NCBI GenBank assembly: GCA_017461285.1
Contig: JAFTYS010000151.1
Span: forward strand, 1 to 36,591
Length of the DNA stretch: 36,591 nucleotides
Direction: 5' to 3'
DNA from: Bacteroidales bacterium
GTDB lineage: Bacteria > Bacteroidota > Bacteroidia > Bacteroidales > UBA932
A program made the translations under genes and the position numbers. Below the pieces are notes generated by a model. It saw only the letters and a list, made by a program, of their open reading frames with translations. It searched no databases and had not been told where the DNA came from. The stretch's first letter is position 1, and each line of letters starts with the position of its first letter. Positions 13,325 to 36,463 of this stretch are shown in pieces.

Positions 13325-14008
13325 ATGAAGAAGCAGAAGAATATCATAGAAGCGCCTTTGGGAGAAACAAAAGTTCTTCTCCACACCTGCTGCGCACCGT
13401 GCTCGAGCGCAATCATCGAGGCCATGATGAAGAACGGGATCACTCCCGTTATTTATTATTGCAATCCCAACATCTATCCTGTGGAAGAGTATGAGATAAG
13501 AAAGAACGAGTGTAAGCGATATGCAGAGGCCCTCGGCCTTGAAATCGTTGATGCCGACTATGACCATGACAACTGGCTCCTTCAGATGAAGGGACTTGAA
13601 GATGAGCCGGAGAGGGGAGGGAGATGCCTCAAATGTTTCAAGTTCAGGCTTCTTCGCACGGCTGAGTATGCGCGTGACCATGGTATCAAGGTTATCACCA
13701 CCACTCTCGCTTCTTCCCGCTGGAAATCCCTCGACCAGATCAATGAAGCCGGCTTCTGGGCCTGTGATCAGGTCACCAACCGCTACTTATCCACCGAAAC
13801 CTCCGTTTCCGTGGATAACCCTCACAATTCCCGCCACTTATCCACCGAAACCCCTGTTTCCGTGGACAAAACGAACGACGGACCTGTCTGGTGGCCATAT
13901 AATTGGAAAAAAGGCGGCCTTCAGGAACGTCGCCTTCAGATTATCAAGGAATATGATTTCTACAACCAGCAGTACTGCGGCTGCGAATTCAGCATGCGCA
14001 ACAAGTAA
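13325..14008 (+). CDS. queH: Epoxyqueuosine reductase QueH with a repeat-encoded insert
   Basis: Reduces epoxyqueuosine to queuosine in tRNA wobble position 34, in the cytosol; the non-cobalamin alternative to QueG. Signature cysteines are present: HTCCAPCSS (Cys22, 23, 26), CLKC (Cys101, 104) and YCGC (Cys218, 220), as needed for Fe-S and metal sites. TTLASSRWK and WKKGGLQERR are typical of Bacteroidetes members. I start at the ATG at 13325, because the in-frame TTG at 13310 lies inside the -7 box. Residues 153-186 are an unusual insert of two 17-residue units (core STETSVSVD and STETPVSVD) encoded by a palindromic DNA repeat, placed between ACDQVTN and the conserved WPYNWKKGG region. All catalytic motifs are intact, so the enzyme is probably functional. 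Confidence 0.93.
   Translation: MKKQKNIIEAPLGETKVLLHTCCAPCSSAIIEAMMKNGITPVIYYCNPNIYPVEEYEIRKNECKRYAEALGLEIVDADYDHDNWLLQMKGLEDEPERGGRCLKCFKFRLLRTAEYARDHGIKVITTTLASSRWKSLDQINEAGFWACDQVTNRYLSTETSVSVDNPHNSRHLSTETPVSVDKTNDGPVWWPYNWKKGGLQERRLQIIKEYDFYNQQYCGCEFSMRNK
13781..13869 (+). repeat. Two in-frame copies of a palindromic repeat inside queH
   Basis: Two 38-bp units (13781-13818 and 13832-13869) lie exactly 51 bp apart and are identical at 34 of 38 positions; the 13 bases after each differ. Within each unit 32 bp form a hairpin. Unit 1 pairs TTATCCAC (13787-13794) with GTGGATAA (13811-13818), and GAAAC with GTTTC, around loop CTCC with one C-C mismatch. Unit 2 (13838-13869) ends GTGGACAA and has one more mismatch. 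The spacing of 17 codons keeps the frame open. Confidence 0.9.
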
Positions 14009-14025
14009 TCCGGCTTTTCAGATGC

Positions 14026-16572
14026 TTATCTGGTCCTGATTGTAATTCCGGATTTCTTTACTCCCTTTCCGGATACTTCCACGATGATGTCACCTGCCTC
14101 CGTGCAGCTTTGAACCAGAACGGTCAGCTGTCCGCTGAAAAGGTGCATCTGAGGCTGCTGGAACGGTTCAAGACATGTAGGATCGCCGTTGGCGATGGCC
14201 TTGAAAGAGCCTGCACCGCTGACTTTCACCTTCACGAGCCTGTTGTCGCATGGAACAGGATTGCCGTCCTTGTCGATGAGACTTACATTCACATAGCATA
14301 AATCCTCTCCGTCAGCTGAAAGTTCCGTGCGGTCCGGAGTGAGCTTGATTGCGGCGGCCTTTCCTGCGGTGCGGACAATTTTCTCGGCAACGGCATTGCC
14401 TTCAGCGTCATATGCCACGACCCTTATCTCACCCGGCTGGTAGGTCACCTCGTCCCACATGAGGCGGTAGCGTTCCATCGCCGCACGTCCCAGACACGGT
14501 GTGTTGCCGTCCGAAGTTTTCTTTGTACGTATTCCCTGTGAAATACCGTTCACGAAAAGTTCGGCCGAAGGATAAGAGGTATAGACGAATACAGGTGTCA
14601 CTTCGCCTTCGCGGCCTTCCCAGTTCCAGTGCGGCAGGACGTGCAGGGTCTCGTCATCTCTGTTCCATACGCTTCTGTAGAGGTAGTATCTGTCCTTTGG
14701 AATCGAGGCGAGGTCGATGATTCCGAAAACGGAAGAATGGTTCGGCCACGCATCCGTGTCATATGGCGAAGGTTCGCCGAGATAGTCGAATCCTGTCCAT
14801 ACGAACTGGCCGATGCACCAGTCGTAATCCTCGTCGGCAGCGAAGTCGTTGTCCGGAATATTGGACCAGAAACAGTACTCCGTGTCGTATGAAGAGGACT
14901 GATGGTCCTCGTTGAGGATGTCGTTGCCCAAGGTTACAGGGAAATGATAGACTCCTCGTGAACTTACGGTAGAAGCCGTCTCGCTTCCGAGGATTATTCT
15001 CTGAGGAAGAAGATTGTATGCAGGGATGTATCTGTCAACCTTGTAATTGAATCCGACCACGTCAAGCTGCGCTGCGAATCCGTTTTCCACAACTGCATTG
15101 TACTGGTCCATTCCGCAGGTCACAGGCCTTGTAGGGTCGAGCCTGTGGCAGATGTCCTGCAGCCATGCGGCCACTTCAAGACCACCCTCTGCCCATTGCG
15201 ACGGCACTTCGTTGCCTATGCTCCACATCACGACGGAAGCGTTGTTGCGGAAATGCCGGAGCATGTTTATCATATCCTTTTCCGCCCATATCATTCCGTC
15301 TCCGCTGTCTTCGTTGAAGAAACGGTGATAGCCGTTCTCGCATTTGGCCGCGTCCCATTCGTCGAAATTCTCGACCATGAGCATGATTCCCATCTCGTCA
15401 CAGAGTTCGACAAGTTCCTCAGCAGGCATGTTATGGGACGTGCGGACTGCATCGCATCCCATATCCTTGAGCATCGTAAGCTGGCGGCGCAGGGCTGCCT
15501 TGCTGACTGCTGCACCGAGGGGACCGAGATCGTGATGCAGGCAGACTCCGCGGAACTTGCGCATTTCTCCGTTGAGGAAGAAGCCTTTGTCCGGGCGTAT
15601 CTCTATGGTCCTGATTCCGAAGCGGGTGCTGACCTTGTCCAAAGGCTCTGTTCCTGCCTTTATGCTGATGGCCGGTCTTGCCATATCCCAGTCTGTGTCT
15701 ATGCTCCCTCCTGTATATATTTCAGTTTCAGCATGATATAATACAGGATTCTCCGGTGACCATAGCTGAGGGTCATCGACTGTGATGATCTGCTCCACCT
15801 CTCCATTGATGAGTCTGCGTGTGTCTGTCCTCTCGGCTACGGTCTTTCCTTCCGCGTCGATGATGCGGGTCTTGAGAGTCATCACCGAACCATCTTCCGC
15901 TCCCTCGACTGTGGTCCTGACGCTTACGCTTGCATAGTCCTTTCCTACATAAGGAGTGGTTATATATGTCCCCCAGACAGGTACATGCACTGCAGGCATT
16001 GTCAGATGACGTACCTTTCTATAGAGTCCGGCTCCCGGATACCAGCGGCTCGACTGCGGCCTGTTCTCAAGAAGTACGGCAATCTCGTTGGCACCGTCCT
16101 TCAGGCTGCCGGTGATATCCACGGAGAAAGAATTGTAGCCGTATGGCCAGAAGCAGACCTTCTCGCCGTTCACGAATACCTGCGCCTCGCTCATCGCTCC
16201 GTCGAAAAGGAGGATGTGGCGGCGTCCGTCCAGCGTGCCCTGAGCTATTTCAAGGTTTCTCCTGTATGCGCCTTTGCCCATATACGGAAGGCCTCCCGTC
16301 CGTCCGGTCTTTTCAGTCGCCGTCTTTTCTCCGTTCTGTACGACAGCTACCTTCTGAAGGTCATTGCCGCGGTCAAAAGGCCCGTAAATCGCCCAGTCGT
16401 GAGGGACAGTGACCTTTTCCCATCCTTCCGTCGCTTCGATGTCATGACCTCTTCGGAATTCCCATTCCTTAAGGAGGGTTTCGCTCCGTACGCTCTGCGC
16501 GGATGCTGAAATGGTGCAGCTTGCTGCCGCCAAAAGCAAGATTATTCTTTTCATATGGTTGTTTCTTTTCAT
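14026..16572 (-). CDS. GH2 family beta-galactosidase-like glycosidase
   Basis: An 848-residue exported glycoside hydrolase. A signal sequence ends near SASAQ (residue 26); Cys19 in AAASC makes a lipoprotein signal possible too. The order is a sugar-binding jelly-roll domain (about 30-190, VTVPHDWAIYG), an immunoglobulin-like domain (about 195-325), a TIM barrel (about 325-640), and C-terminal beta domains (about 650-848) of the DUF4982 and Big type. The acid/base is Glu455 in WSIGNEVPSQW and the nucleophile is Glu531 in ILGSETAST; RTSHNMP is also typical. Most relatives cleave terminal beta-galactosides, but GH2 also holds glucuronidases and mannosidases. The start overlaps the GH53 stop by four bases, so one transcript with the galactanase and a galactan-degrading role are likely. 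Confidence 0.9.
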   Translation of the reverse strand: MKRNNHMKRIILLLAAASCTISASAQSVRSETLLKEWEFRRGHDIEATEGWEKVTVPHDWAIYGPFDRGNDLQKVAVVQNGEKTATEKTGRTGGLPYMGKGAYRRNLEIAQGTLDGRRHILLFDGAMSEAQVFVNGEKVCFWPYGYNSFSVDITGSLKDGANEIAVLLENRPQSSRWYPGAGLYRKVRHLTMPAVHVPVWGTYITTPYVGKDYASVSVRTTVEGAEDGSVMTLKTRIIDAEGKTVAERTDTRRLINGEVEQIITVDDPQLWSPENPVLYHAETEIYTGGSIDTDWDMARPAISIKAGTEPLDKVSTRFGIRTIEIRPDKGFFLNGEMRKFRGVCLHHDLGPLGAAVSKAALRRQLTMLKDMGCDAVRTSHNMPAEELVELCDEMGIMLMVENFDEWDAAKCENGYHRFFNEDSGDGMIWAEKDMINMLRHFRNNASVVMWSIGNEVPSQWAEGGLEVAAWLQDICHRLDPTRPVTCGMDQYNAVVENGFAAQLDVVGFNYKVDRYIPAYNLLPQRIILGSETASTVSSRGVYHFPVTLGNDILNEDHQSSSYDTEYCFWSNIPDNDFAADEDYDWCIGQFVWTGFDYLGEPSPYDTDAWPNHSSVFGIIDLASIPKDRYYLYRSVWNRDDETLHVLPHWNWEGREGEVTPVFVYTSYPSAELFVNGISQGIRTKKTSDGNTPCLGRAAMERYRLMWDEVTYQPGEIRVVAYDAEGNAVAEKIVRTAGKAAAIKLTPDRTELSADGEDLCYVNVSLIDKDGNPVPCDNRLVKVKVSGAGSFKAIANGDPTCLEPFQQPQMHLFSGQLTVLVQSCTEAGDIIVEVSGKGVKKSGITIRTR

Positions 16573-19489: not shown

Positions 19490-19682
19490 TCCACTTTTTT
19501 AAAACGGTTGAGATTGTGGATTCCGTTGTAAATCAATATGTTGATATACATCGGAATCCACTTTGTTTTTTGTAGCAGTCCCGTCTGCCTCGGACAGGTA
19601 TTCCCTTTATCCACTTTTTAACCCCTTTCCGGTGTTGTAAGTATTTGATATTCAGTGTTATTGGCTATGTTTGTCCACTTTG
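19490..19682 (+). repeat. Four direct TCCACTTT repeats upstream of susC
   Basis: TCCACTTT begins at 19490, 19557, 19610 and 19674, always on the plus strand and with starts 67, 53 and 64 bases apart. The preceding bases vary (AAA, GAA, TTA, TTG in front of the final TCCAC or its neighbour). The second copy is also the 3' arm of the palindrome at 19516-19561. Such spaced repeats between a regulator and its target could be binding sites, but this is not shown. Confidence 0.5.
19516..19572 (+). terminator. Long nested palindrome with T-rich tail after the regulator gene
   Basis: Arms GTGGATTCCG (19516-19525) and CGGAATCCAC (19552-19561) pair perfectly. Inside, TGTA pairs with TACA and ATCAA with TTGAT around loop TATG. 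In all, 19 of 21 positions pair over 46 bases, with only T-T and A-A mismatches. TTTGTTTTTTG follows. It lies 28 bases after the regulator stop and is the likely terminator. Confidence 0.75.
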
Positions 19683-22700: not shown

Positions 22701-23063
22701 CTTCCTAAGACCATCCTTCGACGTTGGACAGGCGAGGGTACTTCAAACAAGTATCCTAAGTTCGAGTTCGAGTCTGAAAACGGCAACCTTCTTGTTTCAG
22801 ACGTATGGGTAGAGGATGCTTCATTCCTCCGCGCACGTAACGTACAGCTCGGATATACTCTTCCGCAGAGCCTTACAAAGAAGTTCTTCGTTCAGCGTCT
22901 CAGAGTGTATGCTCAGGCTGAGAACCTCTTCACCCTCACAAGATACACCGGTTGCGATCCGGAAGTTTCTGGTGGCGGATCATATGGAACAGAGGCCGGT
23001 ATCGACCGTGGTGTATATCCACAGAACCGTACCTTCTCTGTAGGTGTCAATCTTACTTTCTAA
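19791..23063 (+). CDS. SusC/RagA-family TonB-dependent outer-membrane transporter
   Basis: A 1090-residue outer-membrane importer of oligosaccharides that forms a complex with the SusD-like lipoprotein. A signal peptide ends near ASAFAQ (residue 25). A CarboxypepD_reg-like domain covers about 27-105 (VKGTVTDASGYPVIGAAVIV). The TonB-box/plug region begins with MLDETVVIGYGVQKK near 105, and the plug carries the SusC-family motif RIRGVGTIHNSDPLYIVDGM. A 22-stranded barrel fills the rest and ends in aromatic Phe (VGVNLTF), as expected for BAM recognition. Substrate cannot be read from sequence; neighbouring GH16 and GH3 point to beta-1,3-glucan. An 8-base G run at 20052-20059 (residues 88-90) is unusual. 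It is followed 17 bases later by the susD-like gene. Confidence 0.96.
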   Translation: MKHLTRKLVMAFVAMALSCASAFAQQVKGTVTDASGYPVIGAAVIVEGTSIGTTVDLDGAFAFNEAVPSDAILVVSSIGYKTARIPVGGGNLNIVLEEDTQMLDETVVIGYGVQKKSVVTAAISSITSDDLKSQSNTRIDNLLQGMTSGVTVTTSSGAPDAGSQVRIRGVGTIHNSDPLYIVDGMPVGGIDYLNPADIERIEVLKDAASGAVYGARAANGVILVTTRQGKAGKTSVNYDFSYGWQNPWRKPQVLNATEYAIMMNEGSINAGEGLRYEDPYSFGEGTDWVAAIFNDNAPVMKHDLNINGGNDRVQYSTSAGFLSREGTIGGNFGRSNYDRFTLRQAVNATLFDNSNDRSWLNKATMQTSVSYAHINATGISNNSEFGSPLGSALGMSPIESIYATDEQVQLYRELYKGKNGDGTDIDILPYLIKDSQGRYYTVVDGVTYNEQNNPLAMLEQPGTKYFTDKFVANGNLELQIWDGLKFRTQVGIDMAFWGNHGHNEPYFLSSKNYNYDKLSITEATCPDCKKVVSSVTKTDYGSGASQEMNRSLSWQVENILSYDKTFGQNSISVILGQSALSSSSSNVGASAQGVKYLYDDYMISVNNTYGKLEDGHRNGWGSWNSIPYRLASYFGRISYNYGERYMAEVTVRRDASSRFGDNNKWGTFPSASIGWNIKNESFLKDVSWLSGLKLRASWGINGNDNIGNFTYAVYMNSGNNYVFGSGANGTESITPGSKPSGLANPDVKWEQTAQTDIGLDAAFFGNRLTFVADWYQKKTTGMLLSLPVPGYTGESSPTGNLGDMVNSGVEIDLGFRDTYGDFNWHISANATYNKNTLTYLGDDSSYLTVSTHKLGTLSRGVVGMPFPYYFGYKTDGVFQNPEEVAAYTNAEGGLIQPNATPGDLRFVDVSGDGKIDDDDRTYIGKGMPDWTFGLNLGFEWKGIDFNMLLQGQLGAQAFNVTRRTDLYYINLPKTILRRWTGEGTSNKYPKFEFESENGNLLVSDVWVEDASFLRARNVQLGYTLPQSLTKKFFVQRLRVYAQAENLFTLTRYTGCDPEVSGGGSYGTEAGIDRGVYPQNRTFSVGVNLTF

Positions 23064-36344: not shown

Positions 36345-36387
36345 TCCTCCGCACCCTGACATAGGCATCAAGTGCAAAAACATAGTC

Positions 36388-36433
36388 AAAGTGCTCGCGA
36401 TACCCCTGAAAAAGATGGTATCACGAGCACTTT
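36388..36433. terminator. Convergent bidirectional terminator hairpin
   Basis: A 17-position stem (36388-36404 with 36417-36433) pairs AAAGTGCTCG with CGAGCACTTT and GATACC with GGTATC, with one C-A mismatch and a 12-base loop. It lies between the HAD gene and the 3' end of a minus-strand gene and can serve both. Confidence 0.75.
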
Positions 36434-36463
36434 CACTACAAAACCGCACCCGGTTTATCTGAA

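Follow-up and report, generated by a model that had tools for sequence, protein, structure and literature searches.

A doublet of REP-like palindromes in frame within queH of a Bacteroidales bacterium and its likely relation to a RAYT clade of gut Bacteroidales

The DNA analysed here (36,591 nucleotides of a Bacteroidales genome; hereafter the window) carries the gene queH, and two copies of a short palindrome were found inside its coding region (Table 1). The gene product was identified as QueH by its profile match to Pfam PF02677 (E 3.4e-58), and the frame stays open across both palindrome units, as claimed in the original prediction made from the sequence. The same prediction described two 38-bp units, identical at 34 of 38 positions, with a period of 51 bp, and both values were reproduced on recomputation (90% match over 39 nt between 13780-13818 and 13831-13869; start-to-start distance, 51); the 38-bp repeat is real, but the palindromes proper measure 32 bp, the larger figure taking in flanking bases. 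The predicted folding of each unit into a hairpin was also confirmed, with an RNA MFE of -14.9 kcal/mol (z -6.8) for unit 1 and -11.2 kcal/mol (z -4.5) for unit 2, for neither of which was an equal found among 200 dinucleotide shuffles. Allowing up to 2 mismatches, TTATCCACNGAAAC occurs 5 times in the 36.6-kb window (expected, 0.7; 0 of 100 shuffles reach 5), the occurrences being the four arms and a weaker 14-base match at 23015 (2 mismatches). A chance palindrome was rejected on this arm enrichment and on folding far better than that of shuffles, and a known RNA family was rejected after an Rfam search of the window and of loci L104 and L127 gave 0 matches. The reading of TTATCCAC as a DnaA box, to which we take it to bear some likeness, was dropped because other palindrome types of the same build are without TTATCCAC.

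Table 1. Features of the queH locus in the window
Feature	Position	Strand	Remarks
queH, epoxyqueuosine reductase	13325..14008	+	intact, 227 aa; ATG at 13325, stop at 14008
palindrome unit 1, 32 bp	13787..13818	+	arms 13787-13800 and 13805-13818; encodes LSTETSVSVD
spacer separating the two palindromes, 19 bp	13819..13837	+	18-20 bp in doublets and arrays of relatives
palindrome unit 2, 32 bp	13838..13869	+	arms 13838-13851 and 13856-13869; same orientation as unit 1; encodes LSTETPVSVD
whole doublet, 83 bp (32+19+32)	13787..13869	+	about residues 155-182 of QueH

A second open frame of 147 codons (13596-14039 of the window) crosses the insert in a different phase and is probably a by-product, because the palindromes are stop-free in two of the three frames. 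Other inverted repeats were noted in the window. A 56-bp repeat at 36383-36438, with 22-nt arms that are 91% complementary, is REP-like or a terminator, and its core pattern was found in 0 of the 245 loci fetched. A 46-bp repeat at 19516-19561, GTGGATTCCG...CGGAATCCAC, has TTATCCAC 46 bp beyond it. One of the 245 loci contains the first 10 bases of this repeat, which possibly represents another palindrome family.

The doublet sits between the conserved QueH blocks SRWKSLDQI and K-GLQERR, and the eight cysteines that are invariant in a 49-row QueH alignment all lie outside the insert, in good agreement with the predicted placement between conserved blocks with the cysteines spared. AlphaFold predicts the insert to be a disordered loop, with pLDDT below 50 for residues 159-182. 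The statement that most QueH proteins are without such a segment holds for the rows compared: the block-to-block segment is exactly 21 residues long in 42 of the 45 rows L036-L080, against 55 residues in the window QueH. Over all 200 QueH rows (120 protein matches plus 80 genome loci) it ranges from 21 to 135 residues, the proteins being the best 120 of 8000 scored with a query that contained the insert and being, for this reason, enriched for inserts. Using regular expressions, by which some rows receive two classes and the 46 of 80 genome rows unmatched by the loop expression (short-segment) are scored as without A, B or C, we assigned 29 of the 200 rows to class A (window type), 20 to class B (SGK...PD) and 36 to class C (a longer repeat). 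Segment length moves in 17-residue steps, through 38, 55 and 72 residues for A and 42, 59 and 76 for B. The B palindrome type was found in queH of four further genomes.

After trimming of QueH to a core (from just before HTCCAPC to CGCEF, with the loop removed), identical cores were found to carry unlike inserts, here given as class and copy number (P0017 A1 and P0019 C; P0006 A3 and P0025 C; P0009 A2 and P0043 none of A, B and C), or unlike copy numbers of one insert (P0011 A2 and P0014 A1; P0090 B1, P0035 B2 and L002 B3), with the caveat of assembly error for these metagenomic proteins; P0001 is present on 8 contigs, and P0001, P0002, P0004, P0011 and P0019 are on contigs longer than 70 kb. 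The same loop of queH is thus a recurrent site, occupied in different lineages by two palindrome types and one longer repeat. A weakly supported tree of QueH cores, with 11 label changes for A, 10 for B and 25 for C, of which strong branches force 5, 2 and 10, respectively, is no more than suggestive of inserts having been gained or lost repeatedly. Within the genus of G004, 37 of 400 genomes gave a queH match at E <= 1e-60 (best identity, 81%). No DNA-level insertion was seen between two close strains. As to other kinds of insert, Element C (about 136 bp; L104 1501-1636, also L105-L115) shows internal hairpins by eye, is present in 1-5 copies in 5 of 6 genomes and stands in frame in several queH loops, L104 giving no Rfam match, and the queH loop of P0072 carries a short LGMTDE/LGMTGE peptide repeat.

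A second host gene is metH. An in-frame B doublet occupies residues 376-403 of the translated metH frame of genome G011; the homocysteine S-methyltransferase domain (31-368) precedes it and the pterin-binding domain (426-664) follows. A metH match was obtained in 10 of 12 further genomes, and the linker measures 29 residues with one unit (G006, G004), 46 with two (G560, also G011) and 63 with three (G002); linkers without a recognised unit measure 25 (G300, G005), 27 (G009), 28 (G311), 29 (G312) and 53 residues (G001). The G001 linker (L236) carries a different 17-residue repeat, NTGHFLA ... KSGLFLA, perhaps from another palindrome family.

In support of the prediction that the insert is a defined palindromic element, present twice and able to spread and to enter coding genes, palindromes of the same build were identified outside queH in related genomes. 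They have a TCC...GGA core, spacers of 18-20 bp and a period of 50-52 bp, and most are not contained in long reading frames. The TCCGG-type (B) pattern, with up to 2 mismatches, gave matches in all 12 relatives, up to 35 per strand versus 0-2 per strand for a reversed-pattern control; the excess is clear in 7 (G001, G002, G004, G006, G007, G011, G311) and small or uncertain in the other 5 (G003, G005, G009, G012, G312). Many of these matches form doublets or arrays of 32-bp units, and among the 20 loci fetched for arrays, units lie wholly inside a frame of at least 250 codons in one (L127), and the L126 doublet runs into the end of a long frame. Within the genus of G004, 8 of 121 genomes contain the window-type (A) core, and none of the 121 the control pattern. 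Four of the eight (G009, G353, G349, G366) are likely to belong to the type, and in G009, G353 and G349 the units form doublets at a distance of 50-51 bp; the remaining four (G347, G380, G384, G299) gave one hit each, inside a reading frame and without a partner, which may be a chance match. In the family of G009, a longer A pattern hit a single genome out of 299; both A patterns miss 25-bp cores such as those of L199. Many units of the relatives start with TCGTCC or CCGTCC, inconsistently.

RAYTs are transposases linked to REP palindromes. RAYT-like genes were detected with PF01797 in all 18 genomes searched (8 of 8 and 10 of 10, 8 of the latter 10 above the cut-off). Among 44 such loci, at least 2 similar palindromes were present in 23, on both sides in 18, and a TCC-type doublet was found in none, with a single TCC-type match in two. 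The relevant clade was reached not via PF01797 but via ORFs adjoining palindrome arrays: at L130, a 315-codon RAYT-like ORF adjoins a TCCGG-type (B) doublet or array, carries the motifs NHIH and YVHRNP, and matches RAYTs that hit PF01797, itself giving no Pfam hit and a sub-threshold NCBIfam match (17.3 bits; cut-off, 80). A search with this RAYT gave matches in 15 of 15 genomes, and in a tree of 71 distinct RAYTs the L130 clade comprises 20 members from 14 of the 15 genomes, with support of 99/98. Similar palindromes 50-52 bp apart stand beside 14 of the 20 members, two of them (L191, L194) labelled by eye, the other 6 being without such a doublet; 2 of the 16 RAYT rows with 51-bp spacing (L167, L173) fall outside the clade. 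A palindrome spacing of 71-75 bp was observed in 10 of the 71 rows (loci L136-L220), all outside the L130 clade.

TCC-type units adjoin 9 of the 20 clade RAYTs, being of the TCCAC type beside L199, L204, L201 and L210, TCCGG beside L130 (= L191) and L195, TCCGT beside L192 and L207, and TCCAAG beside L194. They stand on both sides in 4 of the 9 (L192, L195, L201, L207) and on one side, in some cases at contig ends, at L199, L204, L210, L194 and L130; at L130 the two units are weakly paired and did not pass the similar-palindrome test. The closest correspondence to the window was found at L199, with five units TCCACC[A/G]AA...GTGGA in a 50-bp period, of which the third has arms, TCCACCGAA and TTTCCGTGGA, identical to those of the window queH, including the C-C mismatch. 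In genome G353, doublets are dispersed (L156, L163) and one RAYT (L204) is of the TCCAC type. Palindromes of the same type beside a RAYT gene, as for RAYT-associated REPs, were thus observed in relatives only. Of the 71 RAYT loci, 31 could be scored for the orientation of their flanking copies, which are direct at 23 and inverted at 8; for the relevant clade 5 of 20 are scorable, all direct (L208 narrowly), and the TCCAC-type members are unscorable.

Taken together, we consider it likely that the queH insert represents a doublet from a REP-like family associated with this RAYT clade of gut Bacteroidales, and that it entered a permissive surface loop of QueH with the reading frame preserved. 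The support is limited by the rarity of window-type units in relatives, 8 of 121 genomes, 4 of these looking like chance. We describe the element as a REP-like variant rather than a canonical member because it lacks the constant tag of textbook REPs and its flanking copies, where scorable, are mostly direct rather than inverted; the 32-bp queH units lie within the 20-40 bp of imperfect REP palindromes, start with TTATCC and have neither GTAG nor CGTC at one end.

A different account would have the palindromes moved by a non-RAYT system, with RAYT genes landing in pre-existing arrays. Such an origin would explain the same units in the same orientation on either side of L207, L192 and L201, as if a RAYT had been inserted in an array, and also G001, which is rich in TCCGG-type matches and yet has TCCAC-type units beside the one clade RAYT seen there (L199). 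It is unlikely, in view of the spacing label following RAYT phylogeny with 1 change against a shuffled mean of 8.1, as judged from the 26 labelled rows (45 of 71 being unlabelled) and with the change on a branch of 77/33 support.

The units within coding DNA were then compared with those in arrays. At DNA level, five sequences each of queH and metH gave 20 units, counted only if at least 6 of 9 pairs were present, and all stand in one frame. The spacing is 51 bp in 10 of 10 coding intervals versus 16 of 28 in the arrays of relatives, the other 12 being 50 or 52 (Fisher p 0.016, only a guide, as coding units are non-independent and array intervals were counted by hand, leaving out three long gaps of 112, 112 and 104). 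The fifth stem position over 78 units is G-C in 28, C-G in 18 and T-A in 14, and for the inner stem (positions 4-6; one unit per locus, n=30) 65 of 90 were paired, against a shuffled mean of 40 with 0 of 5000 shuffles reaching this value, a pairing figure inflated by partial selection of the units for pairing. This covariation across the family and the good folding of both units agree with hairpins kept for a role in mRNA or DNA (translation pausing, transcript stability or protein binding), the coding copy being regulatory, but a transposase that reads the hairpin would be expected to produce stem covariation in any case, related QueH proteins exist with 0, 1, 2 or 3 copies, and the queH insert of L039 keeps the 17-residue period with no unit passing the pairing test; we regard a regulatory role as very unlikely.

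Peptide searches with the window insert (17 candidates, 16 of 16 hits QueH) and with the TCCGG-type insert (9 candidates, 6 of 6 hits QueH) found no other carrier within a limited protein length and with several shared 5-mers required, settings under which the metH carrier was missed. The QueH-only hits, together with the repeated spacer NPHVSC in the three-copy P0006, as slippage would leave, are what an ordinary lineage-specific loop would give, that is, a 17-residue peptide repeat expanded in queH by tandem duplication with the palindrome incidental, but this has hardly any probability and a plain private queH loop was rejected, given that relatives carry palindromes of the same type away from queH and next to RAYT genes, that metH holds a related type with the same frame and ladder, and that unrelated inserts occur on identical trimmed cores.

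For the RAYT-linked doublet, we infer a course of RAYT movement of the unit, a frame filter on the survivors and a tolerated peptide. The RAYT would recognise the single-stranded hairpin and then copy or move the unit; 51-bp steps would later be gained or lost, probably through slippage; in coding DNA only frame-neutral events would survive, the peptide presumably being tolerated rather than selected; and old copies may have lost the palindrome with the 17-residue period kept. A more far-reaching and rather doubtful possibility is that the 51-bp period acts as a ratchet of protein evolution, in which one transposase clade repeatedly seeds frame-neutral units in permissive loops of housekeeping enzymes (queH, metH), with copy number stepping up or down by 17 residues, as a standing source of length variation for these bacteria.

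Coding palindromes are best known from Rickettsia, and become linked here to a RAYT clade in gut Bacteroidales. The natural series of 0, 1, 2 and 3 units on matching or related cores of two enzymes makes testable both the entry of palindromic mobile DNA into proteins and the multiplication of RAYT-REP units, and length variation of QueH and MetH in these MAGs may reflect mobile DNA rather than assembly error. Literature searches, with subscription papers mostly beyond their scope, gave no report of the present element or of palindromic queH inserts; within that reach, two things are new, namely arrays with a 51-bp period in a single RAYT clade and the corresponding 17-residue ladders in queH and metH.

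Known precedents, as far as the parts of the sources covered here go, are intragenic REPs, RPEs and the Bacteroidetes RAYT subclass 2.6. The present system resembles REP/REPIN and RAYT in its short palindromes, doublets, dispersed copies and adjoining gene for a Y1-type transposase (PMC2817692 and PMC6006769, in the parts covered). It departs from REP/REPIN in the period of its doublets and arrays, 50-52 bp (other RAYT clades show 71-75 bp), in the absence of a constant tag (GTAG or CGTC), and in its flanking copies, which are mostly direct where scorable, whereas the portion of PMC2817692 covered describes inverted REPs on the two sides of a RAYT. RAYTs of subclass 2.6, mostly from Bacteroidetes, are described in the part of PMC6006769 covered as having 'atypical secondary structures' copied elsewhere in the genome. 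Intragenic REPs lie inside ORFs, more than half as dimers or groups, and encode 20-30 aa, and two Xanthomonas species carry different REPs at about the same recB site (PMC3733652, in part); the queH palindromes are likewise in an ORF and dimeric, and like recB the queH loop takes different types. The covered parts of PMC3733652 list CGTC REPs for Bacteroidetes and say that these are without a dedicated transposase, and hold no queH, metH or 17-residue ladder in two genes; here, in contrast, a RAYT clade is linked. The original prediction compared the insert with RPEs, known here via the covered text of PMC3733652 (which equates RPE-4 and RPE-6 of R. conorii with CGTC REPs), and the likeness stands in so far as the queH doublet, too, is an in-frame palindromic insert in a protein gene; REP-like is, however, the better description, because, unlike RPEs, most of the copies read here are found outside long ORFs, and the type is associated with a RAYT clade.
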